DNA of 39,400 bases, taken from contig JANLHN010000002.1 in assembly GCA_024654505.1 (NCBI GenBank), positions 1 to 39,400 on the forward strand, written 5' to 3'. The notes beneath the pieces were generated by a model, which had not been told where the DNA came from, searched no databases, and worked only from the letters and a program-made list of their open reading frames with translations. Shown here in pieces: positions 540 through 19,077 of the stretch. Origin of the DNA: Nanobdellota archaeon (GTDB taxonomy: Archaea; Nanobdellota; Nanobdellia; Pacearchaeales; GW2011-AR1). Position numbers and translations under genes: made by a program. Positions within the stretch are counted from its first letter, which is position 1, and each line of letters opens with the position of its first letter.

Positions 540-2717
540 TTATAAGAAATTCTGTCCAGGTCTTACAACTATTGAACAGTCTGCGTTTTCGTTTCTGAAT
601 TCATCTCGGCATTTGATATAATAAGTTTCATCATTTTTCCATTCGGCTACATGGGTTGTTGAGTTTGCATAGGGCATTTCTGTTCCTTCTTCGAACGTAA
701 AGTCACAATCATCCATAGTGTAAGAGCATTGGCTGTCTCTAATTGTTACTATCTTCAGCATTGAATTTTCTTCATAAACTCTTGCGATTACTGGTGCGGT
801 TGTATCAATTTCTATGTTGAATGTGATATTATCTTCTGCTACATTTCCTCCAGAGTCTACACATTTGACATAATACTTCTGGTTTCCTGCAACAACATCT
901 TGTCTTTGTGTATGTACTCCATCATCTTTGTTTGTATCAAAGAACATTAAATAATCATTGAGGTTTCCCGTTTTTGAATAAAAACAGATTGATTTTCCTT
1001 CGTCACATCCAAATAATGTTTCTGCATAGAGTTCAACTGGTGCAGGGCTTACTGCTCCAAAGATTGTTCCATTTGGTTGAAGGTTATTCATTTTCAATGC
1101 TGTGCTTCCATGTAGTGAGAACTTGAAACTTTGTTCGTTCTTGTTTCTGTCGTTGTCAGGCATTCCTGGTTGGTCCTTACATCTCACATAAAAGTCGGTG
1201 TTATCTCTTGCAATTCCAGTTAAGTTTGCTTTACAAGTATATAATTGCTCTGCATTCAGTTTGTATAGGTTCATTGAACAATTCATTGTTTCATACATAT
1301 TTTCATAACTTTGGTCTGTGTGACTCCAGCTACAACTTGCAGGCTCGTCAGTATAGAATTCAACTATTGCGCTGTCGGTGTTTTCTGCTACACATCCTCC
1401 ATTTAATATTGAAGTTGCTTTTATCTTTGGAGCTGTGGTATCTGGCGTTGGGTCCATGCAGAATCTTACATTATATTCGGCAGAGTTTTCATTTCCGTTT
1501 TTGTCTTGACATCTTATGAAGAAGTTTAGGTAACCACCATTTTCTAAAATGAATGAGCTGTTCTCAAATGCTTTTGCACCTGGTAAGGAGAATACCTCTG
1601 TGTGGTTGTAAAGATACATATTGGTTCCACCCATGTAAGAACTCATATCATCCATTCCTAATGTGTGATTGTAATCAATCTTACAAAGTGCTGGTTCGTT
1701 TGTATCGACTCCGAATTTTAATGGAGTGAATGCTTTCAAACAACCGTCGCTGCTGTTCATGTTTACAATCTTAAATCCAGGTCCGGGTGGAGAGTTCTTT
1801 ACATCTGCATATCTGTGACCTGAAGTTAATGCTTGTAAATTTGGAGTTATTATTGGTGGGTCTACATCATAGGGATTAACATTTACACATTTTTCTTCTT
1901 CTGTTCCTGAATTGACTAATTCACAATTTTGTCCTAGGGAACGGCAACGATATTCTGAACAAGGAAGGTCTGGGTCATTACATACTTCACAACTGTTTCC
2001 TCCGGTTGGTGCTTGCCAAGGCATACAATCAAATTGAACGATTACTATCTCATAATTTTTATACATTAATAAGAAGACTGCTAATGCAACTACTGCTCCT
2101 ATTCCAAAAGATAATCCTGCAGATGCTCCGAGGGTGCTGGCCATTTGTCCTGCGAAAACTCCCAGACCAAGTGCACTTGAGAGTGCATTAGTGTTATTAT
2201 CATCCAATCCAAATGCTCCTCCGAGCATTTGTCCTATACCATAGGCTAGCGCTGCGTAAGAAAATGCATTGATAAGACCACCGAATATTCCTTCTGCACC
2301 CAATAATCCTGCTAGACCTCCGAGAGATGATGTTCCAGACGAACCTTCACCAGATGCGTCTTTGTAATCGTCTGTTGCAGTTTCTAATTCGTCTTTTGCA
2401 GTACTCGTGGTTTTTTCTGCAGGGGATTTTTTCCCTAAGAGACTTTGTGCAGAAGTTAATACTTGAGTTCCAGTGGTTACGGCTTCTGCTGCTTTTTCTG
2501 TTCCAGAGGCTCCTAATTCATTCCAAGTATTGGTTTCTGCTCTCCACACCCATGCTCTCTCAGGACTTGTTTGTCCGTCTGTTGTTCCTGGAGTTGTTGG
2601 CTTATCCTCGGCACTAACAACATCTGCCCCACCTATAATAAAAGCGAATGCGAATAGCGAAGCTATGAGAATTACTAATTGGATGCTTGCTGCTGCCCTT
2701 TTATTATTTAACTTCAT
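540..2717 (-). CDS. Cys-rich surface protein with pilin-like N-terminus, Gly/Ala-rich hydrophobic middle and C-terminal repeats of the YYxKCxDxxGN type
   Basis: 731-aa ORF; start at the internal MKLNNKRAAASIQLVILIASLF (2717) preferred over 2735 by analogy with the 1343-aa paralog. Homologous to the C-terminal half of that paralog (CSEYRCRSLGQNCELVNSGTEEEKCV vs CSEYRCWSLGAACEFINKGTEQELCV). Confidence 0.85.
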   Translation of the reverse strand: MKLNNKRAAASIQLVILIASLFAFAFIIGGADVVSAEDKPTTPGTTDGQTSPERAWVWRAETNTWNELGASGTEKAAEAVTTGTQVLTSAQSLLGKKSPAEKTTSTAKDELETATDDYKDASGEGSSGTSSLGGLAGLLGAEGIFGGLINAFSYAALAYGIGQMLGGAFGLDDNNTNALSSALGLGVFAGQMASTLGASAGLSFGIGAVVALAVFLLMYKNYEIVIVQFDCMPWQAPTGGNSCEVCNDPDLPCSEYRCRSLGQNCELVNSGTEEEKCVNVNPYDVDPPIITPNLQALTSGHRYADVKNSPPGPGFKIVNMNSSDGCLKAFTPLKFGVDTNEPALCKIDYNHTLGMDDMSSYMGGTNMYLYNHTEVFSLPGAKAFENSSFILENGGYLNFFIRCQDKNGNENSAEYNVRFCMDPTPDTTAPKIKATSILNGGCVAENTDSAIVEFYTDEPASCSWSHTDQSYENMYETMNCSMNLYKLNAEQLYTCKANLTGIARDNTDFYVRCKDQPGMPDNDRNKNEQSFKFSLHGSTALKMNNLQPNGTIFGAVSPAPVELYAETLFGCDEGKSICFYSKTGNLNDYLMFFDTNKDDGVHTQRQDVVAGNQKYYVKCVDSGGNVAEDNITFNIEIDTTAPVIARVYEENSMLKIVTIRDSQCSYTMDDCDFTFEEGTEMPYANSTTHVAEWKNDETYYIKCRDEFRNENADCSIVVRPGQNFL

Positions 2718-4506
2718 TGAAATTATTTTGGTCATTTAGTTCTTGAATTACTCTGGCATTGAAGCCGCTGCTGATTACATTAACATTGCTTGGTGTGAAT
2801 TTCTTTTTTTCTTTGTCTATGGACCATTTGTAACCTTTGTCAGTATAGACTCCATTATAATTTATGTAACCTCCACAATCTCCAAAGCTTGTACAGATTC
2901 TATTTGCTGCGAGTGCCCAAGATTCCTCTAGGCATTCTTCTCCATCAATTATTTTTTTCCCACCAAGAAGTCCCTCTTCATAGATTACTGCACATTTTGC
3001 ATTTGCTTGTCCACAAACTTGTTGAGACCGTGTATCACTCCAAAAGTTTAACCCTGGAGGAGAATTTGGAACACAGATTCCACCACCTCGATTGGTTGTT
3101 GTTTTTGTATCTCCTCCTTCACCTGCTATGGCATTTCCAGTGATTGGAGAGAGGGATGGACTGGCTGTAGGATTGTTAAATGTGTTTGTAGTGGGGTTTG
3201 AAAATCCGGTATTTGATGAGCCTATATTCCCACTAGCAATTCTCTCAGTAACCCACATTCCTTTTACTGATGGAAGCCATTGACAATCTCTTTGGTCTAT
3301 ATTCAGACATTCCTCTTTTTCAGTTTGTAATACACAACTGACATATCTATTAGGTCTACAACCTGCTGTTCCAAATGTTCCTTCACTTGTTTCTATTGAA
3401 CCCATTAAACAAACTTCTTCTCTATAGTCTGCACAAGGTTCTACTCTTACTGTTCCGTCGACGCAAACTTCTTTATAATATCTTGAGCCGACCTTATCCT
3501 TTCCTGCGCCCATTTCCCCATCATAAACACACCAGCTTTCTCCATTCATTCTTGGGTCTCCATTCCTATCAACACATTCTGTTCTTTGACAATAATTATC
3601 ACTTCCTTCTGGTTTTCCTATTCCTAAGAAACCATTCCATGCAGCACATCGGCTTCCTAATAAATAATCACAATTTCCACAATTCTTTTTGCTTGGGTCT
3701 CCATTATTTGGGGCACAAACTTCTTCGGGCTTTGCGACTCTCCCATTATTCCAACTTTTTACCTTATCTGAAGAGTATACATTCTCTTTATTTCCACAAG
3801 AATCTACCCAATAAACTTTTCCTTTATCGCATGTGGTTGAAGTTTGTCTTGCACAGGCAGTATTAAGTTCTTCTGCCGAGCAAAGTAAATCTTTATAGAA
3901 TACTTTTTGATTAGAACCTATTGTTTCATTGACTGAAACAACTCTTTCTTCTGCTCCACAATCTTTCCTAGTGGTAAATTCGCATATTCTCTCAAAATCT
4001 TTTTCAAAAACACAAGCTCCCATATCTTGTGATTGTGCTGCGGCAATACATTGAACTTCAGAAGTTATAGAGGTATCATAATTATTTTCTACTCCAAAGA
4101 GTGTTGAAAGTTTCTTACATCTAACTAAGGGAACAAATGCTGCTTGGTCTGAAATAATACAACAACCTAATTGACATTGTGGAACTTGGTTTAATTCTCG
4201 AGGGTCCCAGGTTCCATTATTTGCATCACAGACTCTTTGAGGTGTGTTCTCCATACAGATTCCTTCATCAGAATCATAACAGGTTCCAAGTCGACAGTAA
4301 GATGTAGTTTCACATGACGTAGAAGAGGTTTTGAAATTTGTGTTACAATTTGAAATGTTGGTGTTTATGCAATAAGCCCCATTAGTTGTTTTTTCACAAC
4401 AGGTACTTGGTTCGGACATTGTTGCTTCTGCAAGAGTAAGTGTAGAGAGATAGATTGTAAATAGGGAAAGCGCAATTGTTAAAAGTAAATATTTTTTGTT
4501 AATCAT
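2704..4506 (-). CDS. Secreted Cys-rich protein (Sec-like signal peptide)
   Basis: 607-aa ORF; probable start MINKKYLLLTIALSLFTIYLSTLTLAEA at 4506, forming an ATGA overlap with the upstream gene. Homologous to the N-terminal half of the 1343-aa protein. Confidence 0.85.
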   Translation of the reverse strand: MINKKYLLLTIALSLFTIYLSTLTLAEATMSEPSTCCEKTTNGAYCINTNISNCNTNFKTSSTSCETTSYCRLGTCYDSDEGICMENTPQRVCDANNGTWDPRELNQVPQCQLGCCIISDQAAFVPLVRCKKLSTLFGVENNYDTSITSEVQCIAAAQSQDMGACVFEKDFERICEFTTRKDCGAEERVVSVNETIGSNQKVFYKDLLCSAEELNTACARQTSTTCDKGKVYWVDSCGNKENVYSSDKVKSWNNGRVAKPEEVCAPNNGDPSKKNCGNCDYLLGSRCAAWNGFLGIGKPEGSDNYCQRTECVDRNGDPRMNGESWCVYDGEMGAGKDKVGSRYYKEVCVDGTVRVEPCADYREEVCLMGSIETSEGTFGTAGCRPNRYVSCVLQTEKEECLNIDQRDCQWLPSVKGMWVTERIASGNIGSSNTGFSNPTTNTFNNPTASPSLSPITGNAIAGEGGDTKTTTNRGGGICVPNSPPGLNFWSDTRSQQVCGQANAKCAVIYEEGLLGGKKIIDGEECLEESWALAANRICTSFGDCGGYINYNGVYTDKGYKWSIDKEKKKFTPSNVNVISSGFNARVIQELNDQNNFNEVK

Positions 4507-5267
4507 AGTATGTTTCCTATAGGCCAAGCAAGACTCCTACTTGCAAATTGGAATTTATTATTAAATATTTTGCTTTGAATAATATAAAGGGTTGTTCCTT
4601 CACTTTGTTTTAATTTATCTATTATATAGTCTGGGTATAATATCATCATTCCAGATGTTTCAAAATCTCCATAATGAGTTTCGCCCTGAATGATAGATGT
4701 TGCAAGCATTACCATTTCATATATTGCAGAAGGTATTTGAACACTGAACTTTTTGAAACTTTGAGAATCTATAACTGTGGGGGCATTAATTTCAACCCGA
4801 ACCGTTCCAGGTTCGAGGTAGATTTTATAATCTAATTTTCCTTCGACTACACCATACCCTTTTGATTTTAATTCATCTAAAGAACTTGAGTAACAAAGAA
4901 GAATCTTTTCTCTTACCATTAGAGAAAGTTGATCTTCAAATTGTTGTTTTAAGAAAGGTTGTTGAGTTATGCAGGGTTTGTAGTATTCATTTGTGTAACA
5001 GAGGTAAACGAATTCTTCTCCCTTATGTGTAAAACTAAATTCTGGTTTTAGTAGTCCTGCAGTATTTCCTAAAGTGCTTATGTCTTGTTCTATGGCATCT
5101 GCTACGCAATTTTCGAATCCTAAGTTTTCTGTGGAACCGGTAATATATGTAGGTCTAACCCATAAAAAGAAGACTAATATTCCTGCAATTATAATAATTC
5201 CAATGATTATAAATAACGTAACCTGTCCTCTTTTACTTTCTATTTCTCTCATTGTCTTTTTAGCCAT
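4503..5267 (-). CDS. Type IV pilin-like protein (class III-type signal KRGQVTLFIII) with a large ectodomain
   Basis: 254-aa ORF; KRGQ followed by a single hydrophobic helix. Paralog of the 249-aa protein at 9311-10060 (shared RGQVT-FII, LCY..(E/D)YY.PC..QP, MMLYPE/D). Confidence 0.8.
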   Translation of the reverse strand: MAKKTMREIESKRGQVTLFIIIGIIIIAGILVFFLWVRPTYITGSTENLGFENCVADAIEQDISTLGNTAGLLKPEFSFTHKGEEFVYLCYTNEYYKPCITQQPFLKQQFEDQLSLMVREKILLCYSSSLDELKSKGYGVVEGKLDYKIYLEPGTVRVEINAPTVIDSQSFKKFSVQIPSAIYEMVMLATSIIQGETHYGDFETSGMMILYPDYIIDKLKQSEGTTLYIIQSKIFNNKFQFASRSLAWPIGNIL

Positions 5268-5303
5268 TGCTTATTTATAAATTCTATTATCCTCGACTAT
5301 TTT

Positions 5304-8300
5304 TTATATTGCTCTTACTTGCATTGAGCAACCGCTTGGAACATTCCCAAATTCATCTCTACATTTAATTGAATATGTTTCTCCATGGGCTGTGCTTATT
5401 GTATGGGCTGTTCCACTTCCCGCAGATTCTCCTTCATTCCAATTGAATCCGCAACCAGTTGTAGAATATTTACATTCAGCTGTTTCGGTAGTTACAAAGT
5501 GAATAGTCCCTCCAACTTGCCAGACTCTCGCTATTTGTGGGGTTGATGTATCTTGGATTATCCTAAATTCTGTTTCTCCTGTGTCAAAATCTCCAGTTTC
5601 ATCCCCACATTTAATATAATAGTGGTGAGTTTCTGCCAAAAGCGTTTGGGATTGTGTATGTGTTCTGGATGCTCCAGTTTCAAAAAACGGAATCATGTTG
5701 TTATACCCTGATTTAGAATAAGAGCAAGTGTGCCATTCTCCTCCTCCAGAAGTTACAATTTCCAAATTAATTTGGTTTAGTCTTGTTCCAGATTCATAAT
5801 CAGTATTTGGTTTGATGGAATCTATAGTTATTATTTTTGTAGGTTTTCTTATTATGTACTCTTCTCCGATTGTATTGGCATTCCTATCTCCTTCTTCATC
5901 AGTATCTTTCAACCATGGTTGGTCCATGCAACGGAAGTAATAATGATTTTCAGCGTTTGGTGTTGGAAGTGTGGTTGAACAAACGTAACCATAAATAGAT
6001 GAGGGATTTAAATATTGGTCATTACAATTCATTTCATTACTCATTAAAGAGTACTCTTTATCTGTTGTGTCCCATCTGCATGTGGAAAGTTCATTTGTCA
6101 TCACTTTGATATCATCTTTTTCTGTTGCGTTAAATTTAACAATGTTTCCACTTAAAGGGGTTATTTTTTCTATATGGGGGGCTCTCCCATCTGGTCCTTG
6201 ATTAACACAATATTCTGCTGTGTAATGTCCTAAACTTACTATTTCGTGACGGTCAATGCATTTAAAATAGAGTTTTGAGTCTGTGCTCCAATTTAGTCCA
6301 TGACTTTGGCCGTGACTTGGGTCTTGAAGATTAATTGTCAAATTATGAGAGTATGCAAAAGAATCAGAGTCAAAAGGTATCGCCATTTCTTCAAAATCTT
6401 TTGGTTCAAAATCTGCCTTACACCAAGAAGGCTCATTAGTTGTTAATCCTATTACTAAATCTGTGTATGGTTCTAAACATCCTCCATCCTCCATATTAAT
6501 TCTAAATCCTGTAGATGTTGGTGTGGTGGTTGTTCCATCGCTGTTTGAAATTGTAGTGTCTTGACCAAGAACAGGAGGATTTACATCAAGGGGGTCATCT
6601 TCAACACAGAGTTCTTGTTCGGTCCCCTTATTTATGAATTCACATGCGGCTCCGAGACTCCAACAACGATATTCAGAACAAACTCTTTGTGGGTCTTCAT
6701 TACATTTTTCACAGTCACTTCCTCCGTAAGGCGGTTTCCACGGATTACATTTAAACTTTACGATTTCATTATCACAATCGCTTTGGAAAAGGAGGGATAC
6801 TAGCATTAAAATTATTCCAATAATAAGAAGAATCCATCCTATAATTGGGATGGATGCAAGTACATATAATGCCACTAAACCGGCTCCAGCCATTGCACCA
6901 CCAATGGTCATGAGTAAAGTACCACCTGGACTTAGCCCCATTTCTTTTGCAAGATATTTTCCAAGAGCAGCGCCTAATAAGGCTCCTACTGCTATTGCTG
7001 CGAAGGCTCCTAAAAGACCAATTCCTGATAATCCAGCTCCTCCTCCCCCTGCCCCTCCTGCAGTTGCTACGATAGTCTCAACAATATGTCCAGTAATTCC
7101 TGGGGAAGTCATTACCCCTTGAGAAGATGTGTAACCAGAAGCGAGAATACCATAATTAGTGCCCGCAAGCCCATAACCTTGTGATAATAATTTGTTTGCG
7201 AGGGTTGATTCTCCACCCATACCTTCATAAATTTTAGTATAGTTCTCTACTTTTGCGAAGTTATCATCTGTGGGGATGGCTAATGCCCTTATTTTGTTTA
7301 TATAGGTCATTCCCACATCAGGGGCATTTACTACATCGTAATTTTTTGTGTATTTACCAATATAATTTGCTTCCCCACCACAATCTCCAAGGCCCCTACA
7401 AAAGTCATTCATTTTCTCTGTAAATCCTACCTTTAAACAATCCTCATTTGCTTCAATTTTACATCCTCCCCAGGTTTTTGGTACATAAACTACTTCACAT
7501 TCTACTGTGGCTGCCTTACAATTACTTTTCATTGAGGCTACGGATGCCTCGTTATTAACATCATACCCTATAGGGTATTTTGGAACACAAACATCAAAGG
7601 CAAAACTATCAGCAATGTCAACTTGGGCCACTCTACAATTTGGTTCTTCGTCACAGAGTCTCATGTTCCCAGTAAATTGGGATTTTCCAATATCAGTGTA
7701 ACAATCTTTCCATTTATCTCTCATAATTGATAATTGATTAGTACACTCTTGTTTTTCACTTGTTACATCCACACCAATTATAACCTTACATTTGGGTTGC
7801 CCATTTATTACTTCCAAAGTTCCTCTGTCGCAACCCCCTTCAGAGTTTGGTGCCACCATGCATTTTGGAGGAGATGAAGTTTTATTATAAACTCCATTAA
7901 GGTTTGTACATCTTTTAACAGGGTTATCTTTTGAACAATCTTCTAAATCAGATATAATCCTCATTGCTTCGTCGCAGTCTGTTATTATGGTTTCTCCAGT
8001 ATCCCCTTCTACTTTCTTGCTGTTAAAGGTTATACAAGTAGCCCAGTTGTTTAAAATACACTTTCCCTGTTTAAAGGGGATTTTTGTTCCATCTCCCATT
8101 TCAATCTCTTCTGATTGAATACATATTTCTCCTCGATAATCTGTACAGGGAGAGATGTCTACAACACCTTGGTTACAAGAATATCTCCAATGTCTTGAGC
8201 CAACGACGTCATCTCCATTTCCTACTTGGCCATCATATTCACACCAACTTTCTCCATTCTCATAATGTTCTCCATCAAAAGTGCATGAGGTATCTCTACA

Positions 8301-9314
8301 GTAAAATTCTCCGTAGTCGGTATTATGGGAACCATCTTTAGGTGCACAGGCTCCACCAAGGGCGGCTTGACAATTCCCACAGCTATTAGAATTTGCATTT
8401 CCATCTAAGTCTCCATAATTGCAACTCTCAGAGCTATTTACTATAAGTCTCCAATAATCTGCGTCATTGATTTTTGAAGAGTCGTATATATTTGCGGTGT
8501 TTCCACAAGAATCTAAAAAATAAACTTCATCCTTACCTTCAACACAGGTTGTTTCTGTTGTTTTCTCACAAACAGTGTTTAATTCTGGAGCGGTGCAGAG
8601 TTTTCCTTCATTAAATGAGCCACCAGCATTTTGACATTGTTCTCCTGTTTGAAATCTACAAAGTCCTCCCTCACCTATACAGGCTCCTTTTCCAGGAAGT
8701 TCTGCAAGCCAATAACATTCTTCCTCATTAAGATTACTTCTCCAATCTGCTCCTCCTTCCCCAAACCCCAATTGAGTTGTTCTCAGAGTACATTGTGCAG
8801 AGTTTTCAAAAAAGGTTTGGGCGTCAATAACACAACACCCTTTTTGTGCTGTGGGAATGTTGCTACATGAACCATCGACCCAATTTTGATTACATGATGT
8901 CTGTAATACTCCATCATCAAAAACAGTTAAAGCATCGTTATAACAACAACCTCTTTTACAAAAAGATGTTTCTCCACACGTTTGAGAATTTATAAATGTA
9001 GATGTTGAAGGACAATTTTCTATAGAGGCTGTTGCACATTGGTCTCCATTAGTTGCTTGTAGACAGCAACCCAAGATCGGTTCATCTATTGCCGAAGCGA
9101 AGGGAATCATAGGTTTCTTGATTTGAGACACGATAGATATAAGGACTGCTCCAAAAACAGATATTTTTTTCTCACGATATTCCTCCACTTTTGTTAAAGT
9201 TTCTTTATCAATTGTTGGAGTATTTGAGTCTAAGATATATGAAAATGCGAAGATAGAAATAATTAAGATAATTAATTCAAAACTAGCGATTGCTTTTTCT
9301 TTATTTAATTTCAT
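5304..9314 (-). CDS. Giant Cys-rich surface protein; fusion of homologs of the neighbouring 607- and 731-aa proteins
   Basis: 1343-aa ORF; probable start MKLNKEKAIASFELIILIISIF at 9314 (ATGA overlap with upstream stop). N-half aligns by eye to the 607-aa protein (GESWCEYDGQVGNGDDVVGSRHW vs GESWCVYDGEMGAGKDKVGSRYY), C-half to the 731-aa protein. Confidence 0.85.
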   Translation of the reverse strand: MKLNKEKAIASFELIILIISIFAFSYILDSNTPTIDKETLTKVEEYREKKISVFGAVLISIVSQIKKPMIPFASAIDEPILGCCLQATNGDQCATASIENCPSTSTFINSQTCGETSFCKRGCCYNDALTVFDDGVLQTSCNQNWVDGSCSNIPTAQKGCCVIDAQTFFENSAQCTLRTTQLGFGEGGADWRSNLNEEECYWLAELPGKGACIGEGGLCRFQTGEQCQNAGGSFNEGKLCTAPELNTVCEKTTETTCVEGKDEVYFLDSCGNTANIYDSSKINDADYWRLIVNSSESCNYGDLDGNANSNSCGNCQAALGGACAPKDGSHNTDYGEFYCRDTSCTFDGEHYENGESWCEYDGQVGNGDDVVGSRHWRYSCNQGVVDISPCTDYRGEICIQSEEIEMGDGTKIPFKQGKCILNNWATCITFNSKKVEGDTGETIITDCDEAMRIISDLEDCSKDNPVKRCTNLNGVYNKTSSPPKCMVAPNSEGGCDRGTLEVINGQPKCKVIIGVDVTSEKQECTNQLSIMRDKWKDCYTDIGKSQFTGNMRLCDEEPNCRVAQVDIADSFAFDVCVPKYPIGYDVNNEASVASMKSNCKAATVECEVVYVPKTWGGCKIEANEDCLKVGFTEKMNDFCRGLGDCGGEANYIGKYTKNYDVVNAPDVGMTYINKIRALAIPTDDNFAKVENYTKIYEGMGGESTLANKLLSQGYGLAGTNYGILASGYTSSQGVMTSPGITGHIVETIVATAGGAGGGGAGLSGIGLLGAFAAIAVGALLGAALGKYLAKEMGLSPGGTLLMTIGGAMAGAGLVALYVLASIPIIGWILLIIGIILMLVSLLFQSDCDNEIVKFKCNPWKPPYGGSDCEKCNEDPQRVCSEYRCWSLGAACEFINKGTEQELCVEDDPLDVNPPVLGQDTTISNSDGTTTTPTSTGFRINMEDGGCLEPYTDLVIGLTTNEPSWCKADFEPKDFEEMAIPFDSDSFAYSHNLTINLQDPSHGQSHGLNWSTDSKLYFKCIDRHEIVSLGHYTAEYCVNQGPDGRAPHIEKITPLSGNIVKFNATEKDDIKVMTNELSTCRWDTTDKEYSLMSNEMNCNDQYLNPSSIYGYVCSTTLPTPNAENHYYFRCMDQPWLKDTDEEGDRNANTIGEEYIIRKPTKIITIDSIKPNTDYESGTRLNQINLEIVTSGGGEWHTCSYSKSGYNNMIPFFETGASRTHTQSQTLLAETHHYYIKCGDETGDFDTGETEFRIIQDTSTPQIARVWQVGGTIHFVTTETAECKYSTTGCGFNWNEGESAGSGTAHTISTAHGETYSIKCRDEFGNVPSGCSMQVRAI

Positions 9315-10060
9315 ATTCCTGGTTTTGGTGAACAACTTCTCACAGCAAATTTAAATTTTTCTTTGGTTTTTCTGTTTTCTACAGAATAAAGTCTACTGCC
9401 TTTATAATTTACTTGTTTTATGTCTAACTCTGGGTATAACATCATGTAACCCCCATATTCAAAATAACAATATTCTGATTCGGCATTTACAATATCTCTT
9501 GTTACTCCAATTAAGTTATATAGTGAAGACAAAATCTTAATATCAAAATTTTCAAACCTTTGTGATGTTCCTTCCTTTGAGATTTCTACGTTTTTTCTTA
9601 ATTGAATATTGATTGAACCCGGAAGTAAATCAATAAAATACTCTGTTTCATTTCCTTCGACAGTAAACCCTCGGTCTTCATAGTCTTCTTTCAACATATT
9701 AAAACAATTTCTTACTTGTTCTTCTGTTGATGCCTTAATTTCTGCTTCAACTGACGATTCTATCATTGGCTGAAGGTTGTAACAAGGAAGATAATAGTCG
9801 GCTTGATAACAAAGATAATTATATTTATCTCCCTCATAAAGGATTGTTTTTTGAGGGTCTAATTTTCCTCCATAGCCTAATATTATATCTACCTTTTCTT
9901 CAATTGCCTCGGTAACACAACTTTTAATAAACTGACCAGGACTGACTTCTTGAGGAGTCTTCACTTCTTTTTCACCACCCAAAAAAACAACCCCTAGTAT
10001 TCCTGCTACGAGGACTACTGCTACAATAATAAATATTGTAACTTGGCCACGATTATTCAT
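9311..10060 (-). CDS. Type IV pilin-like protein (class III-type signal MNNRGQVTIFIIVAVVLVAGI)
   Basis: ORF track start is 10096; MNNRGQVT at 10060 is preferred because it overlaps the upstream RHH stop (ATGAATAA) and puts the signal at the N-terminus. Confidence 0.8.
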   Translation of the reverse strand: MNNRGQVTIFIIVAVVLVAGILGVVFLGGEKEVKTPQEVSPGQFIKSCVTEAIEEKVDIILGYGGKLDPQKTILYEGDKYNYLCYQADYYLPCYNLQPMIESSVEAEIKASTEEQVRNCFNMLKEDYEDRGFTVEGNETEYFIDLLPGSINIQLRKNVEISKEGTSQRFENFDIKILSSLYNLIGVTRDIVNAESEYCYFEYGGYMMLYPELDIKQVNYKGSRLYSVENRKTKEKFKFAVRSCSPKPGI

Positions 10061-10196
10061 TTTCTGCCTCCGCCAATGCTTCAATTGCAGTTTCAATTAC
10101 ATGGGATTTATTTCTGTACTTACTATTTTTTAGAATTTTTTCTATAGTCTTTACTATAGACTCCTCAACTGTTGCAGAGATTCTTGTTTTAACCAT
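10053..10196 (-). CDS. Ribbon-helix-helix (CopG/Arc-like) DNA-binding protein, 47 aa
   Basis: Manual translation: MVKTRISATVEESIVKTIEKILKNSKYRNKSHVIETAIEALAEAENE*. Classic RHH pattern (beta strand TRISATV, helix, RNKSHVIETAIEAL helix). GGAG lies upstream of ATG. Too short for the ORF track. Confidence 0.8.
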   Translation of the reverse strand: MVKTRISATVEESIVKTIEKILKNSKYRNKSHVIETAIEALAEAENE

Positions 10197-10258
10197 TTTG
10201 CACTGCTCCCACTGCATAAATGGTTTCATGGAACATTTTTAATTTTGCTTTTACAATG

Positions 10259-10347
10259 GTAATACTCCGTAATATTTTGTATTACTAAATATATTTTGTA
10301 ATATTTAATAATATTTAGTCATATTAAGTAATACTTTAGATATTTAA
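10259..10347. repeat. ~10-bp-period AT-rich repeat array (GTAATAYTNN consensus)
   Basis: Successive units GTAATACTCC/GTAATATTTT/GTATTACTAA/ATATATTTT/GTAATATTTA/ATAATATTTA/GTCATATTAA/GTAATACTTT/AGATATTTAA at 10259, 10269, 10279, 10289, 10298, 10308, 10318, 10328, 10338. Confidence 0.75.
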
Positions 10348-10370
10348 ATGTTTTTATTCAGTTCTTAGAA

Positions 10371-11093
10371 TTAATCGTTTTCAACTCTTGGGGCTAGAAC
10401 AAATCCTATTCCCATCTTCTCTCCAGGGAAGTCAAGTCTTAGAGGATAATCATCTGAGAAGTTTACAACGACTGTGTCAGAGGTTTTTGCCGCTTTAATG
10501 AATTTCATTAGATATTCTAAGGAGTATTTTGACTTTGCTATCCCCTTTATTTTTGCTTCATCTCCAGAAAATTCGGCTCTTGCAGAATTTAGCTTTCCTA
10601 TTCCCTCAATCATAAAGAAACCCTCTCCAGCGATTAGGGAGCAGGAGTCTGCGACCACTCTTGCGTCTTCAATTGCTTGTGAAAAACTAATTGAATCAAG
10701 CTCTACTCTTGCTCCGAAAATTAATTCGGGTATGTCTTTGTCTTCATGTTCGATGTCAATTAAGGCTAGGGTGAAGACTCTTTTTATTTTATCAAAGATA
10801 GAGATTTTTAATTGATTATCTTCTTGTTCTAGAACAATACTTGAAGACAAAGAAGCTCTTTTTAGAATCCGTTTTAGGTCATCGAGATTTACTCCCCAGA
10901 CCTCTTTGCCTGTTTCATATTGGGAGAAGGATTCTTTTGGCAGTCTGAATATTACTAGGGCTACATTTGCGGGGTCAACAGCCACTATGCTTAATCCATC
11001 TTCTAAAAGTTTGATTCTCACCTCAGTTACAACCTCAGAAATGATAGATATTGCGTCGCTTAGCAATTTTGGTTTGTCCATCTTTAGTATCAT
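10371..11093 (-). CDS. pcn: DNA polymerase sliding clamp (PCNA)
   Basis: ISEVVTEVRIKLLEDGLSIVAVDPANVALVIFRLPKESFSQYE... and C-terminal YPLRLDF..MGIGFVLAPRVEND, PCNA-like. MDKPKLL at 11081 is an alternative start. Confidence 0.93.
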   Translation of the reverse strand: MILKMDKPKLLSDAISIISEVVTEVRIKLLEDGLSIVAVDPANVALVIFRLPKESFSQYETGKEVWGVNLDDLKRILKRASLSSSIVLEQEDNQLKISIFDKIKRVFTLALIDIEHEDKDIPELIFGARVELDSISFSQAIEDARVVADSCSLIAGEGFFMIEGIGKLNSARAEFSGDEAKIKGIAKSKYSLEYLMKFIKAAKTSDTVVVNFSDDYPLRLDFPGEKMGIGFVLAPRVEND

Positions 11094-12871: not shown

Positions 12872-14695
12872 ATGAGAAAAGTTGGTGTATCAATTATAAT
12901 TCTGTTAGTTATGGCATTTGGTTTTGTTGCTGCAGCAGAATCTCAACAAAATGTAAGTAAAGTTGAGAAAGGGTTTGAATGTTTAGAAGAGAAAGTGGGA
13001 GATTGTTCGGCTTTGACTACTCAAGAAATTGCATTAACAATTTTGGCTACTCCAAATGATAATGTTTTTGATGATTGTGTTGCGGAGTTAAAAGATAGGA
13101 AGGCAAGCGATCATTGGGGAAATGTTCGGGATACTTCTCTTGCTATTTTAGCTTTACATCATGCGGGAGAATCTACTCAGGTTGCTGAAGAATGGCTTCT
13201 TAATCAGACTAGAACCCCTACAGAACTTGAGTGGTATCTTGAACAAGATTCTAATTCTGAGACAGAATGTTCTTTTGGATATGATGCGAATAGTTATAAT
13301 GTAATTATTGGGGAAAACAAAAAACTTGAGAGTAATGCTGGTTCATGTTTAACTAGAGCACAATCTAACTTTTGGTTAAAGATTTCTCCAACATGTTATG
13401 ATAATGAATTTTCAGTCGAGTGTGACAAAGATTTTATTGCAACTCTTTTATATAAAAATACTAATTCTCCTACAATCCATATTTTAGAAGGAACGGATTC
13501 CTCTCCAGCATATGGTTCTATCAAATTAAAAGTAAATTCAAAATGTTTTGGAACCGGCTCATGTGAATATGAGGCTACTGCTTGGGCAACTATTGCTCTC
13601 CTAAAAACAGGACATGATGTTTCTGATTATATTCCTTATATTGTTGCTATTGCAGAGACTAATGAAAGGTTCCTTCCAGCTGCTTTTATTTATATGGCGA
13701 CGAGTTATAATGATTATGCGACAAAATTGGTTTCTGATGTTAAATTAGGGAATTATTGGCTGGCTGCTGGTTCTGCCTATGATAAGTTTTATGATACTGC
13801 TCTAGCTCTTGTTGCATTGGGGAGTTCTTCTTCCGAACAAGTTGTAAAATCTAAGGATTGGTTATTGTTTTCACAAGCAACCACTGGTTGCTGGCAAAAT
13901 TCTATAAGAGATACAGCGATAGTCTTGTGGGGAATTGAAGGTCGTGCCGGTAAGTCTGGTGGTGGAGGGGGTGGAGGAAGCACAACTCTTTGTGGAGAAG
14001 CTAATTATTTTTGTATTCCTACGGGAGATTGTCCCTCTGCTGAAAATGTGGGGAATAATTATTTTTGTAATTCATTGTCAGAGACTTGTTGTATGAATGA
14101 AAACTTGAAGACATGTTCTGGTTATGGTGGAGAAGTTTGTACAGGAGATTCGGTTTGTACAGGTAATGAGAGACGGTCTTCCGATGTTGAAGCATGTTGT
14201 ACTGGAGAATGTGTTGTTAGGCCTCAAGAGACTGAGTGTGAGGCAAACTTCTATTATTGTATGGATTCTTGCTTAGATTCACAAGAATCTGCAGGGAATT
14301 ATGCTTGTGATGGTGCCCAGGTTTGTTGTAGGACAAAGACAACATCTACTTCGACTTCTGGAAGCAGTTTGTGGTGGTTATGGGTTTTGATAATTCTTGT
14401 TGTTATTGCCATTGTAATGTGGATATTTAGAGAGAATATTAGGATGATGTGGTTTAAAATGAAGTCGGGAGTTAAGAAAGAGGATGGAGCAGGCCCAGGC
14501 CCTGGAGGACCAGGTTTTGGACCACGACCAGGAATGCCACCACGAGGGATGCCACCAAGGAGAATGATACCACGACCAGGAATGCCTCCCCAGGGAGCAC
14601 CGGCCGGAGCACAGCGACCACAGGCAAGAGGTTATGATAGAAGAGACAGAGCAATGTCTGACACATTCAAGAAGCTAAGAGATATGTCTGGGTAA
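12872..14695 (+). CDS. Surface protein: prenyltransferase/terpenoid-cyclase-like helical repeats, Gly linker, juxtamembrane Cys modules, TM, Pro/Gly/Arg-rich cytoplasmic tail
   Basis: Signal peptide; DTSLAILALHHAGE..., DTALALVALGSSSSEQVVKSKDWLLFSQATTGCWQNSIRDTAIVLWGI; GGGGGGG; CC-containing modules; WWLWVLIILVVIAIVMWIF; GPGPGGPGFGPRPGMPPRGMPP tail. Confidence 0.8.
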   Translation: MRKVGVSIIILLVMAFGFVAAAESQQNVSKVEKGFECLEEKVGDCSALTTQEIALTILATPNDNVFDDCVAELKDRKASDHWGNVRDTSLAILALHHAGESTQVAEEWLLNQTRTPTELEWYLEQDSNSETECSFGYDANSYNVIIGENKKLESNAGSCLTRAQSNFWLKISPTCYDNEFSVECDKDFIATLLYKNTNSPTIHILEGTDSSPAYGSIKLKVNSKCFGTGSCEYEATAWATIALLKTGHDVSDYIPYIVAIAETNERFLPAAFIYMATSYNDYATKLVSDVKLGNYWLAAGSAYDKFYDTALALVALGSSSSEQVVKSKDWLLFSQATTGCWQNSIRDTAIVLWGIEGRAGKSGGGGGGGSTTLCGEANYFCIPTGDCPSAENVGNNYFCNSLSETCCMNENLKTCSGYGGEVCTGDSVCTGNERRSSDVEACCTGECVVRPQETECEANFYYCMDSCLDSQESAGNYACDGAQVCCRTKTTSTSTSGSSLWWLWVLIILVVIAIVMWIFRENIRMMWFKMKSGVKKEDGAGPGPGGPGFGPRPGMPPRGMPPRRMIPRPGMPPQGAPAGAQRPQARGYDRRDRAMSDTFKKLRDMSG

Positions 14696-14698
14696 GAT

Positions 14699-15337
14699 TT
14701 ATCTTATTAAAATTCCTTGTTTTTCTTTTAATGTTTCAACTGCTTCTCTCGTTCTTATTACAAAGTGATCATGTAAATCTCTTCTAATTCCAATATTTGG
14801 GAAATCTCCTAAAGAAGTTATTTGTTCTAAATTTGGTTGTCTTAATAATTCCATTTCAGGAAGAACCTCTAACATCCAAGAGGTCTGATGGGGAGGATTT
14901 TTTCTTGCTATTTCCTCAATTTCCTTATAATTGTGAGCTCCCCCTTGATAATCTCTGCATTCGAGGAGAGAACAAACCGCGTCTACAGCACCCAAAAGCA
15001 TATCTTCTTCAGAAGCTTCTTGAACTGGCCTTGTTTTATCATTAGGGTCTGGTTCATTCCACATTCTATGGTGATATTGTTGTCTATGTAATTTTAATGC
15101 AGGGAGTATATAGGTTTCAAAATCTGGTCTTGGTTTTCTGTATTGTAATGCTAAGCCTTTTACTATCTCCCAATCATATTTGTTCCATAGACCAACTAAA
15201 TCATGGGGCCTTTCAGGGTCTTTATTCCCTAGACCCAATTTACCTAAAAAATATTCTACATGACAAGAATGTTGAAGGGTTGAAACTAGCCACCTCCTTA
15301 TTTCATCCTTGGTTGGAGTCAATACCTTTCCCATCAT
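14699..15337 (-). CDS. Conserved hypothetical protein with His/Asp-rich helical motifs (possibly HD/DUF5662-like)
   Basis: HSCHVEYFLGKLG...RPHDLVG...LHRQQYHHRMWNEPDPN; no confident family assignment. Confidence 0.55.
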   Translation of the reverse strand: MMGKVLTPTKDEIRRWLVSTLQHSCHVEYFLGKLGLGNKDPERPHDLVGLWNKYDWEIVKGLALQYRKPRPDFETYILPALKLHRQQYHHRMWNEPDPNDKTRPVQEASEEDMLLGAVDAVCSLLECRDYQGGAHNYKEIEEIARKNPPHQTSWMLEVLPEMELLRQPNLEQITSLGDFPNIGIRRDLHDHFVIRTREAVETLKEKQGILIR

Positions 15338-15412
15338 AATTGGCTGGTAAATTTGCAGTTAAAAGGTTTATTATACTGTAATGCCAAAATTTATTAACGT
15401 GTTAAACCGTTC

Positions 15413-16717
15413 TTGATTATGAAAAAGTGTGTGGTATTATTATCTTTTGTTTTGTTTATTTCATTGGCTTCGGCTGTGCCAACATTGATTCTTCAACATA
15501 ACGAAACATTTGCGGGAGAGACTGTTTTTGGACGTATAGAAACTGTAGGGGAATTTGTTAGTGCTGTTTCCCCTTCAGACATCACTTTTTTTGAGGGTAG
15601 AAAAGAGGTCTCTTTTGAGCACGATATTATTTTTTATGATGGTGTTTATTATTTTTATGTTTATACTACAAGGGTTGGGGAATTTAACATGAAGGTCTCA
15701 AAGGTTTTATATAAGGAGGCAGAGATTTTGGGGGAGAAAACTTTTGATGTTCTACTAAATGTAACTGGAGGGAGTCATTTTTCTGAAGAGGCCAACGAGA
15801 CTGTTAGAGATAGTCTCTCAATAAAACCAGGGTTTTTCTTTTCTGTTCAAGATCCCACTATTAAACTTATTAATAAGGGAACCTCTTTTCTGAATGTTAG
15901 TTTTGGAGAGGATATTGTTTCTCTTAAACCTTTAGAGTCTAAAGAAATTAGTTTTATTCCAGAATCTGCATTTTCTTTTGCTAATTTCTCTACATATAAG
16001 GATTTTTCTGTACCTATAATTTATCTTTCCGCAAATGGGAGTGTTTATGTTGCTCCCGATGGTGCATTACTCCTTCGGTCGGACCCAAGAATTATATTTG
16101 CTAATATAATTATTGGAGACTCCACAGAAATAGTTCTACAGTTTTTTAATTTGGGAGATGAGAATATCACCGGAGTTTCGGTTGTTTCTCCTTATGATTT
16201 TATTGGTTTTGAGGATTTTTCAGAACTTCCTGCACGGGGTATTCAAAATCTTACTTTGAAAATTTCTCCAGAAGAGGGAGGCCATATAGGGGGCCATTTA
16301 GAGGTTAATTATTCACAATTCAATAAAAGTCATCAAATAACTATTCCAATTAGCCTTTTTGTTTTGCCAAAGGAAAGTAATGTTAGTGATTTCAATGTAT
16401 CTGGAGAGACTTGTGCCAGTGAGGGTGGACAAATTTGTCCAGAGTCTTGTGATGGTAGGGCAATGTTTACTGATGATGAGAAATATTGTTGTTTAGGGAA
16501 TTGTGTTCCCTATAGTAATGATGGGGGAATAACGCCCAACCCTAGTGGAGGACTTGGATGGCTTTGGGGGATATTAATATTTTTGGTTCTTGGTGTTGTG
16601 GGATATTTTATTTGGAAGAAATATAACCAGACAAAACCTGCAGAAGCTGAGGAAAAGTTAGATGAGTCTGCAAAGAGTTATTCTACGAGGATAAGTGGCG
16701 GAATTCAGAGAAGCTGA
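15413..16717 (+). CDS. Surface/secreted protein with beta-rich ectodomain, juxtamembrane Cys module and C-terminal TM
   Basis: Signal MKKCVVLLSFVLFISLASA; CASEGGQICPESCDGRAMFTDDEKYCCLGNCV then GLGWLWGILIFLVLGVVGYFIW. Confidence 0.75.
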   Translation: MIMKKCVVLLSFVLFISLASAVPTLILQHNETFAGETVFGRIETVGEFVSAVSPSDITFFEGRKEVSFEHDIIFYDGVYYFYVYTTRVGEFNMKVSKVLYKEAEILGEKTFDVLLNVTGGSHFSEEANETVRDSLSIKPGFFFSVQDPTIKLINKGTSFLNVSFGEDIVSLKPLESKEISFIPESAFSFANFSTYKDFSVPIIYLSANGSVYVAPDGALLLRSDPRIIFANIIIGDSTEIVLQFFNLGDENITGVSVVSPYDFIGFEDFSELPARGIQNLTLKISPEEGGHIGGHLEVNYSQFNKSHQITIPISLFVLPKESNVSDFNVSGETCASEGGQICPESCDGRAMFTDDEKYCCLGNCVPYSNDGGITPNPSGGLGWLWGILIFLVLGVVGYFIWKKYNQTKPAEAEEKLDESAKSYSTRISGGIQRS

Positions 16718-16757
16718 TTACAATAATCTTTTTAAACTTCTCTGTGGGGGTGTTTTT

Positions 16758-17384
16758 ATGGCTGATGAAGAAACCAGTGAAAAAAAGCCCCAAAGAGAGA
16801 AAAGACTAATTTTGGATGGTTCTCCTTGTGATACTAATTATTTCGATAGAACATTACTTACTTTAGCACAAGCAAGAGGGAGGGGAAGGGAAATTTGTCC
16901 AAGGTATAATGAATGTAATACCCATCCTGGACCTTATTGTTCATTACAATCTGGATTAGATATTGCAAAATATGTTGTTCAAGGACAAACCTTGGAAAAG
17001 AATGTGAGGGACTTTTCAGTTGCTGGCGATTTTTTGAATGACCCTTTTATTTATTCTGTTAATAGAAGAGATTTTCCTGTTGCACAGGGAAGGGCAAGAT
17101 TTGTCCGAGCTGCCGAGGGTTTTGCAAGGGTTGTATTGTTAATGGATCCTTTTGAATCTACAACTGGAGATTGCGATAAATGTCTTGGCCCGAAAACCAA
17201 AACAAGTGTGATTGATTCAATCCACGATGGACCTTTTCCTCTTTCAGGTAGTGGAAGGACTATTCAGAGAGAAGTCGAATATTGTGCTGATTGTGAGCCT
17301 ACTCCTTGCGGGGGATTTCTCAAAGAAGATCCTCGTGATAAGGCAGAAAGAGAATTTTTAAAGAGACTTCGAGATTCTAGGTAA
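16758..17384 (+). CDS. Hypothetical Cys-containing protein
   Basis: Start at MADEETSEKK (16758) preferred over 16695, which overlaps the previous gene; GDCDKCLG and YCADCEPTPCGG motifs. Confidence 0.65.
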   Translation: MADEETSEKKPQREKRLILDGSPCDTNYFDRTLLTLAQARGRGREICPRYNECNTHPGPYCSLQSGLDIAKYVVQGQTLEKNVRDFSVAGDFLNDPFIYSVNRRDFPVAQGRARFVRAAEGFARVVLLMDPFESTTGDCDKCLGPKTKTSVIDSIHDGPFPLSGSGRTIQREVEYCADCEPTPCGGFLKEDPRDKAEREFLKRLRDSR

Positions 17385-17401
17385 TACTGAATTTTTAGTA
17401 G

Positions 17402-17899
17402 TTATTTCTTCTTTTTCTTGACTACTTTCTTTTTGATTGCAGTTTTCTTTTTTACTTCTTTTTTCTTTGGGATTTTTATTTGCACTTCTGGTTTATGTCC
17501 TGCCTTTTGTAGTTCGGCGGTTAATTGGTTTATTTTAAATTGGGCAATTTTTGCAATTTCATCATAACGATGCATCCTTCCAGAGATGTTGTTTAAAAGG
17601 TTTGTTGCTTCTGGTGCGTCCATTATTACGCTTGATGGTTCAATAACTTCCACCGAAGAAGGCATAAAGTCAAACATTGTTTCACTTAATCTGGCAAAGT
17701 TTTGAGTTTCAAAATCAGCTTCGGCAAAACAAGTGTAAATTCCTTTAGAATCTTTAATCTCTGCAGGTTCACTAACTGTTATTGAATGAACTTCTATATC
17801 ATTAACTTTTCTTAGAATTTCTATATGTTCAGTCAACTTCTCTTTTACATGTTGGGGAGGCATCCCCGCCATTTCAACAATCATTATTGCACGTATCAT
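17402..17899 (-). CDS. Conserved hypothetical protein with Lys-rich C-terminus
   Basis: 165-aa ORF, MIRAIMIVEMAGMPPQHVKEKLTEHIEILRKVNDIEV... with KKKEVKKKTAIKKKVVKKKKK tail. Confidence 0.7.
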   Translation of the reverse strand: MIRAIMIVEMAGMPPQHVKEKLTEHIEILRKVNDIEVHSITVSEPAEIKDSKGIYTCFAEADFETQNFARLSETMFDFMPSSVEVIEPSSVIMDAPEATNLLNNISGRMHRYDEIAKIAQFKINQLTAELQKAGHKPEVQIKIPKKKEVKKKTAIKKKVVKKKKK

Positions 17900-17923
17900 A
17901 TTTTATGGAATGGGAGGGAGTTT

Positions 17924-18580
17924 TTAAAACTTCTCTCTTAACAAAATAATTATTATTAAGATTAAGAATATAGAGAACGCATATGGGAGGAAGCTTATGA
18001 TTTTGCTGTTCTTTGATTTGTAGATTAATTTTTCTGTTTGTTCTGTTTTTGGATTGGAGAGGGTTATGATTTTCTTCTCTTTTGGGGCTTCGTTGATGGT
18101 TACTTCTTTTGATGTTTCTTCTTTTTGTATAACTTTTTTTGTGGGTTCCTCAATAACCTCCTCCTCTTCAATAACTCCTTCTAAGATTGGTTCTTCAATA
18201 ATTTCTTCATTTGGTTCTTCAACCTTTATTGCAAAATTAAAAGATTCTATCTTACTTTTTTGTCTTAATTTTATTAGGTCTTGAAATTCTCCTATAGACT
18301 CTATTTTCAATCTGATTTCTTTTTTTTCCTCGTTTCCAATGAAGGAGGGAAGGTAGTTCCATGTTGACTTCCAAGAAGATTCCTCTTCGTTCCAAATTTT
18401 GGCGATTGTTTTACCATTTTCTTGTAAGTTAAATTTAAAATCGTAAAGATCCGTCGCATTGAAGAGTTCTAGAGAACATGTGAATTCTTCATTTAATGTG
18501 ACTGTCTCTGGGCAATCAAAATCGACTTCAATAGCTGATACAAATGTTGCTAGGAGGATTATTATAATGATGTATTTCAT
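17924..18580 (-). CDS. Membrane-anchored secreted protein (signal peptide, ectodomain, Glu/Lys stalk, C-terminal TM)
   Basis: MKYIIIIILLATFVSA...EEPILEGVIEEEEVIEEPTKK...IISFLPYAFSIFLILIIIILLREKF; ATGA overlap with upstream gene. Confidence 0.7.
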   Translation of the reverse strand: MKYIIIIILLATFVSAIEVDFDCPETVTLNEEFTCSLELFNATDLYDFKFNLQENGKTIAKIWNEEESSWKSTWNYLPSFIGNEEKKEIRLKIESIGEFQDLIKLRQKSKIESFNFAIKVEEPNEEIIEEPILEGVIEEEEVIEEPTKKVIQKEETSKEVTINEAPKEKKIITLSNPKTEQTEKLIYKSKNSKIISFLPYAFSIFLILIIIILLREKF

Positions 18581-19077
18581 CTCATTCTTTTTTCAATGTC
18601 TTTAAAGTCGGTATACTCTACTCGGACCCGATTCTTTTCTTTGACTTTTTTTGCAACGAGAATTTCATTGAAGGTTTTGTTTTCTAAGAGGATGGAACAC
18701 TTTTGTTTTTCTTCTTTACCTAGTAAGCCATTTATCTTGACTTCAACACCAATGATTTTGTATCTTTCTCCATCTATTAATTGAAATGCGATAAAATCTG
18801 GGAATCCTGTTCCAATAGTCATAATTTTTGCGAAGGGATTGAACTTTCTTTTTGCTGGGACGATTCTTTTTTCATCTAAATCCACATTGTTTGACCACTT
18901 ATCTACAATCCATCCCTTTTCTTCTAAATCTTTTCTTACTTTTAGTTCAAATTGCCCGCCGGAAGCTTTGGCTTTCTTTCCACTTTTTATCTTGACTTTC
19001 TTCTTTAGGACAACATGACCTTCATCATCTACAGATGCTTTGTATTCAGACTCTTTTTCTGGAGAGGGTAGTTCCAT
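18577..19077 (-). CDS. PD-(D/E)XK nuclease-like protein
   Basis: GGQFELKVRKDLEEKGWIVDKW ... GFPDFIAF ... IIGVEVKINGLLGKEEKQKCSILLE: E/PD/ExK layout typical of the superfamily. Confidence 0.6.
   Translation of the reverse strand: MELPSPEKESEYKASVDDEGHVVLKKKVKIKSGKKAKASGGQFELKVRKDLEEKGWIVDKWSNNVDLDEKRIVPAKRKFNPFAKIMTIGTGFPDFIAFQLIDGERYKIIGVEVKINGLLGKEEKQKCSILLENKTFNEILVAKKVKEKNRVRVEYTDFKDIEKRMR

Follow-up and report, generated by a model that had tools for sequence, protein, structure and literature searches.

The stretch of DNA analysed in this work (39,400 nucleotides (nt), hereafter the window) is contig C13 of the genome assembly of a Nanobdellota archaeon of the order Pacearchaeales (GenBank GCA_024654505.1, contig JANLHN010000002.1; 621 kb in 13 contigs, about 82% complete). 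Positions 540-10196 host a block of six closely packed minus-strand genes, which encode, in the order of transcription, an RHH protein of 47 amino acids (aa), a pilin-like protein (PIL1), a giant Cys-rich protein of 1343 aa, a second pilin-like protein (PIL2), a Cys-rich protein of 607 aa and a protein of 731 aa (Table 1). Both the order and the junctions reported in an earlier sequence-only reading were exact on re-check. ATGA overlaps occur at 9311-9314 and 4503-4506, the RHH gene (ATG 10196, TAA 10053) overlaps the PIL1 gene (ATG 10060) by 8 nt, and a gap of 36 nt (5268-5303) separates the first giant from PIL2. The 607- and 731-aa open reading frames (ORFs) overlap out of frame by 32 nt (2704-2735). 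Cysteine makes up 5.4% of the giant, 6.8% of the 607-aa and 3.1% of the 731-aa protein, and ranges from 0.4 to 2.1% in most of the neighbours counted.

Table 1. Features of the block and of its upstream flank in the window, and fused genes of relatives (a slash within a motif marks the predicted cut)
Feature	Position	Strand	Basis
Probable RHH operator, cluster of TATTAC/GTAATA half-sites	10259..10333	.	5' of RHH start
RHH (CopG-type) putative DNA-binding protein, 47 aa	10053..10196	-	Pfam RHH_1, ORF check
PIL1 (pilin-like protein 1): NNRG/QVTIF, transmembrane helix, alpha/beta head	9311..10060	-	ORF, alignment, motif, model
Giant 1, 1343 aa: pilin-like N-terminal helix (E5-type), Cys-rich region, Gly-rich membrane helices (~773-850), Cys module, tandem Ig-like domains	5304..9314	-	Alignment, model
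PIL2 (pilin-like protein 2): ESKRG/QVTLF	4503..5267	-	ORF, alignment, PIL1 comparison
Split giant 2, Cys-rich half: 607-aa ORF, ordinary signal peptide	2704..4506	-	Relatives, giant 1 comparison
Split giant 2, membrane and Ig-like half: 731 aa, own pilin-like (Q5) N-terminus	540..2735	-	Giant 1 comparison
PCNA-like gene, constant upstream neighbour of the block across the class	10371..11093	-	Neighbourhood of relatives
PIL-giant fusion ORFs	L256:4251-7949; L257:4867-8133 and 14902-18708; L258:6739-10557; L259:7661-11581; L260:254-4171		

The sequence-only reading viewed the block as two copies of one cassette, made of a pilin-like gene and a gene for a Cys-rich surface protein, the 1343-aa product corresponding to the 607- and 731-aa products taken together. 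PIL1 and PIL2 are indeed paralogs, 30% identical over 252 aa (E 8e-37). The giant aligns with the 731-aa protein along residues 773-1341 (31% over 587 aa, E 3e-77) and at the N-terminus (53% in the 34 residues 2-35), and with the 607-aa protein along residues 57-441 and, in a second block, 582-663 (32% over 408 aa, E 2e-46). The view is amended in one respect. Genes of the 607 and 731 type form one ORF in many relatives, and because other orders of the class carry the second giant as one ORF, which is the usual form there, the 607/731 pair is, on sequence comparison, the split product of a single second giant. A sequencing frameshift was ruled out, as the split is common to many relatives, some of which have genes between the halves. 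In a FastTree phylogeny of the C-terminal part of the giants, cassette 1 and cassette 2 proteins are separate (support 0.945), with 3 of 121 sequences misplaced, and the cassette 2 giants of the class-level set fall inside the cassette 2 clade. In the tree of PIL proteins, 43 cassette 1 copies of the order group together (support 0.977); class-level copies lie outside this clade, so that the tree does not date the PIL duplication. A third cassette was noticed in the same genome on contig G000:C8, the contig of the second machine described below. It consists of a gene for a PIL-like protein of 610 aa (L266:2429-4261) followed by one for a giant of 2217 aa (4261-10914), has no Pfam match, and is kept in the genomes G032, G015, G022, G004 and G213. 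Judged by gene content, the pair of PIL and giant is a recurring design in the class.

The giant was matched in 124 of the 132 genomes of the order, and an alignment search of the contigs of the genomes retrieved 223 relatives, the best named of which come from metagenome genomes of Ca. Pacearchaeota and Nanoarchaeota. Gene order was surveyed at 20 order-level and 80 named loci, and separately at 20 class-level loci from other orders. The usual arrangement is PCNA (a name which we take from family knowledge), RHH where present, PIL, giant, PIL, and then either the 607- and 731-type genes or a single fused gene, about 1360-1440 aa in length. The second giant is followed on its 3' side by four small ORFs (p165, p310, p170 and p167), an opposite-strand HTH gene (PF25212) and an S-layer gene (PF05124, S_layer_C), which is the last gene of the operon in most of the loci that extend far enough. 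The block thus runs past the end of the contig, as seen from the loci of relatives, and the window is without the last genes of the operon because the contig stops at base 1. At positions 1-390 an ORF open at the contig edge encodes a hydrophobic stretch and a GC motif (lipoprotein-like), in the place where relatives have p165; p310 has no match in the incomplete assembly of this genome (G000). Other orders of the class have the same gene set; in them the second giant is a single ORF, and the first often comes directly after PCNA, without a PIL of its own. The RHH gene is present in some loci only; the constant neighbours are PCNA, four more genes of the pilin-like kind, the HTH gene and the S-layer gene. 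A PIL gene lies directly 5' of the giant in 38 of 39 cases, and of the 607-type gene in 48 of 48. Homology between cassettes and synteny in relatives, the two points open to testing on which the cassette proposal could have failed, are therefore both found. Class members without a PIL or giant match are G230 and G255 (family f59) and the genus g83 (f16), all with genomes of 600-900 kb, which make a natural negative set for comparisons of lifestyle. The block is no local oddity: as predicted from these comparisons, it makes up the larger part of an envelope locus conserved in this DPANN class, a surface-protein operon common to the whole class and without counterpart in the protein-family databases searched.

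The class III cleavage context pointed out in the sequence-only reading is well supported, as [KR]x[GA]/Q precedes a hydrophobic helix in 108 of 115 pilin-like proteins. The same loose motif is found in p165 (50 of 56 proteins), p310 (55 of 56, the residue after the cut being variable), p170 (50 of 54) and p167 (50 of 51). PIL1 is modelled with a mean pLDDT of 91 and a pTM of 0.78, as a helix (residues 16-39), a weak linker and an alpha/beta head. The profile and structure searches that had been proposed were run, and only the C-terminal half of the giant gave a likeness in fold. PIL and giant-type proteins have no match to any Pfam or NCBIfam family, pilin families included, and PDB sequence profiles returned nothing meaningful for pilin-like, 731-type and giant proteins. 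Pfam matches to coronavirus NSP4 and Kelch were below cut-off and were set aside as chance, and the best Foldseek match of the PIL1 model (E 0.013, TM about 0.13) was treated as no match. The likeness to pilins could thus be superficial, PIL and giant being a Sec-exported adhesin/receptor pair with an N-terminal anchor and no relation to type IV systems. The lack of a pilin family match, and of a solved fold resembling the PIL head, would fit; yet the Q at +1 never varies among 46 aligned proteins, the motif hardly varies across five families encoded in one operon, and a matching peptidase is present in 190 of the 194 genomes of a phylum sample, which makes such a coincidence highly improbable.

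In the giants dozens of cysteines are invariant (27 sequences aligned). A Glu or Gln residue close to the start of the N-terminal hydrophobic run is found in 46 of 93 giants and 48 of 76 proteins of the 731 type, in one of 55 proteins of the 607 type and in one of 41 S-layer proteins. Since 607-type proteins almost never carry this N-terminus and 731-type proteins often do, the pilin-like N-terminus would sit on the 731 half after the split. A model of residues 1-1200, of moderate quality (pLDDT 66, pTM 0.47), places helices at 773-799, 803-825 and 830-850. If all of them span the membrane, their odd number would leave the Cys-rich, Ig-like C-terminus inside the cell; one of the helices in 773-850 is probably not a full span. 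The C-terminal half of the model finds its best matches in tandem Ig, cadherin and SraP adhesin structures (E about 1e-4 to 1e-3), and is read as tandem Ig-like domains only.

The association of the two protein types is strongly supported by gene fusions. PIL and the Cys and C-terminal regions of the giant make up one ORF of 1088-1306 aa in the genomes G215, G209 (two genes), G251, G281 and G258; the fused ORFs stand alone, and the rest of the operon is not nearby. A re-split form, with PIL plus Cys region and C-terminal part as two ORFs, was found in G220 (L263). Because of gene fusion and near-invariant adjacency, PIL and giant very probably act together, and this is the best-supported functional statement that the gene comparisons allow.

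No pilus ATPase or platform gene occurs in the window, as the sequence-only reading had stated, but the genome encodes two such machines and a prepilin peptidase elsewhere. The canonical type IV pilus locus (L085) comprises an ATPase of 511 aa, two TadC parts and its own pilins. The second machine (L092:2108-11991 / L105:8162-19829, G000:C8) has an ATPase of 756 aa related to TadA/FlaI, a 742-aa protein moderately similar to TadC and 48-74% identical among eight aligned members of the order, about nine small class-III-like ORFs and the prepilin peptidase (L092:10975-11991; Peptidase_A24 above cut-off). The second platform protein is found in 190 of the 194 genomes of the phylum sample, the canonical TadC in 158, some by weak matches only. 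In G042, G048, G050, G052 and G054 the canonical ATPase ORF is about 1000 aa long and its PF00437 match is in two pieces, as if interrupted by an intein-like in-frame insertion.

The block might serve the canonical machine as its set of minor pilins and adhesin. Both the genome under study and almost every genome sampled from the order have this machine, and two large proposed tip adhesins with at least five minor pilins are what Makarova et al. 2016 (PMC4858521) model for clade 1 archaeal pili. The canonical locus, in turn, has pilin genes of its own, of a different N-terminal type (KGISAIVATVLI), and giants occur in five genomes (G142, G244, G246, G309 and G004) that have neither canonical TadC nor an ATPase of about 500 aa in the canonical score range. 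Membership of the block in the canonical machine is weakened by these genomes and looks unlikely; because they keep the giants without canonical ATPase and TadC, the block does not appear, on gene content, to need that machine. We infer that it uses the second, class-universal one.

In the mechanism proposed, PIL and the small proteins would be cut by the prepilin peptidase of the genome and anchored by their N-terminal helix. Each pilin-like protein would bind its own giant, a step strongly supported by gene fusion and synteny, and the giants would show disulfide-stabilised Cys-rich and Ig-like domains outside the cell. The set would supply minor pilins and adhesin to a type IV filament-like machine, most likely the second one, which has its genes for motor ATPase and TadC-like platform elsewhere, and would reach through the S-layer to a host or neighbour. 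The operon probably belongs to a type IV pilus-like machine contacting other cells or supporting an outer coat, and may be described as a putative type IV filament-related surface module. That the block is more precisely a minor-pilin/adhesin module detached from the genes of its machine is given about even chances. A stricter proposal, by which the locus and the second machine together are a type IV filament-like contact apparatus of a distinct kind, with paired giants, each loaded by its own pilin-like partner, bridging the S-layer to the host cell, is doubtful.

Several observations weigh against the detached module. Filament-forming pilins have a long alpha-1 helix, unlike PIL1, whose first helix has about 24 residues (16-39) and is followed by a low-confidence linker (43-48) in the single predicted model. 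The PIL1 head has no Foldseek match in the PDB at E<=0.001, and matches no solved pilin. The giant carries about three extra hydrophobic helices, odd in a pilin subunit. No assembly gene was found in the locus with the profiles of the second machine at the 80 named loci, or with those of both machines at the 20 class-level loci. Between the block and the second machine, the small proteins resemble each other in the N-terminal helix alone, and the idea of orthologous sets was dropped. The link to the second machine is drawn from the absence of the canonical one in five genomes, one of which is only 77% complete. The short helix with its linker, the extra membrane helices and the lack of ATPase and TadC at the locus, as well as the S-layer gene at the end of the operon, would suit the main rival, a static envelope complex in which PIL and giants sit anchored in the membrane and partner the S-layer as anchors, spacers or stalks, held by a class-III-like anchor and never assembled into a filament. 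This is quite possible, if short of an even chance; six class-III-signal proteins in one operon suit a set of type IV filament subunits better than plain anchors, and N-termini of the E5/Q5 type mark the giants, not the S-layer or 607-type proteins.

The sequence-only reading placed the block under a small RHH regulator. The 47-aa protein matches Pfam RHH_1 with E 7e-4 and 19.9 bits, just under the 20.5-bit cut-off. Six relaxed half-sites lie in the 174 nt upstream of its gene (expected, 0.76), a number reached in none of 5000 dinucleotide shuffles; a fixed-spacing operator pattern had no match in the window, where only the half-site cluster stands. Where an RHH ORF is present, 12 of 15 regions upstream of PIL contain the strict motif GTAATAC/GTATTAC; where it is absent, one of 137 does (some regions come from the same genome in two collections). 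Because of this difference RHH likely controls the block where its gene is present. As in known RHH (CopG-type) autoregulators, RHH is the first gene of the unit and clustered short operator-like sites lie 5' of it; here RHH resides in a minority of loci, and GTAATAC is a predicted operator. Away from the block, a gene at 12872-14695 of the window encodes another Cys-rich surface protein of 607 aa, with a weak squalene-cyclase-C match and a C-terminal membrane helix; it adjoins the primase gene and is conserved in the order.

A near-universal surface-protein operon without Pfam, NCBIfam or PDB entry is thus provided with fusion evidence for the pairing of its products and with candidate motor and peptidase genes, and annotation pipelines could give names to eight or more families of proteins that are at present listed as hypothetical in these genomes. 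The locus also supplies concrete targets for work on the way in which DPANN archaea attach to their hosts and exchange material with them; microscopy has revealed pili-like connections and nanotubes (PMC11329633). A search of open-access papers found no account of this locus. Of the published systems the clade 1 archaeal pilus (PMC4858521) comes nearest; it shares several class-III-signal minor pilins, two large secreted proteins proposed as tip adhesins and S-layer-like genes in the locus model. In that system the genes for ATPase, TadC and EppA lie within the locus or close to it, and DUF2341 is part of the large proteins; at the locus described here the searches found no assembly gene, all three giant-type proteins lack a Pfam match to DUF2341, and the giants have a pilin-like N-terminus of their own and membrane helices. 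The bacterial PilY1-type and modular pilin tip adhesins similarly have a large adhesive ectodomain carried by a pilin-type N-terminus or a minor-pilin complex. No sequence relation to them was found, and the design differs in that the giants combine Cys-rich and Ig-like domains, each giant being served by a dedicated pilin-like partner gene.

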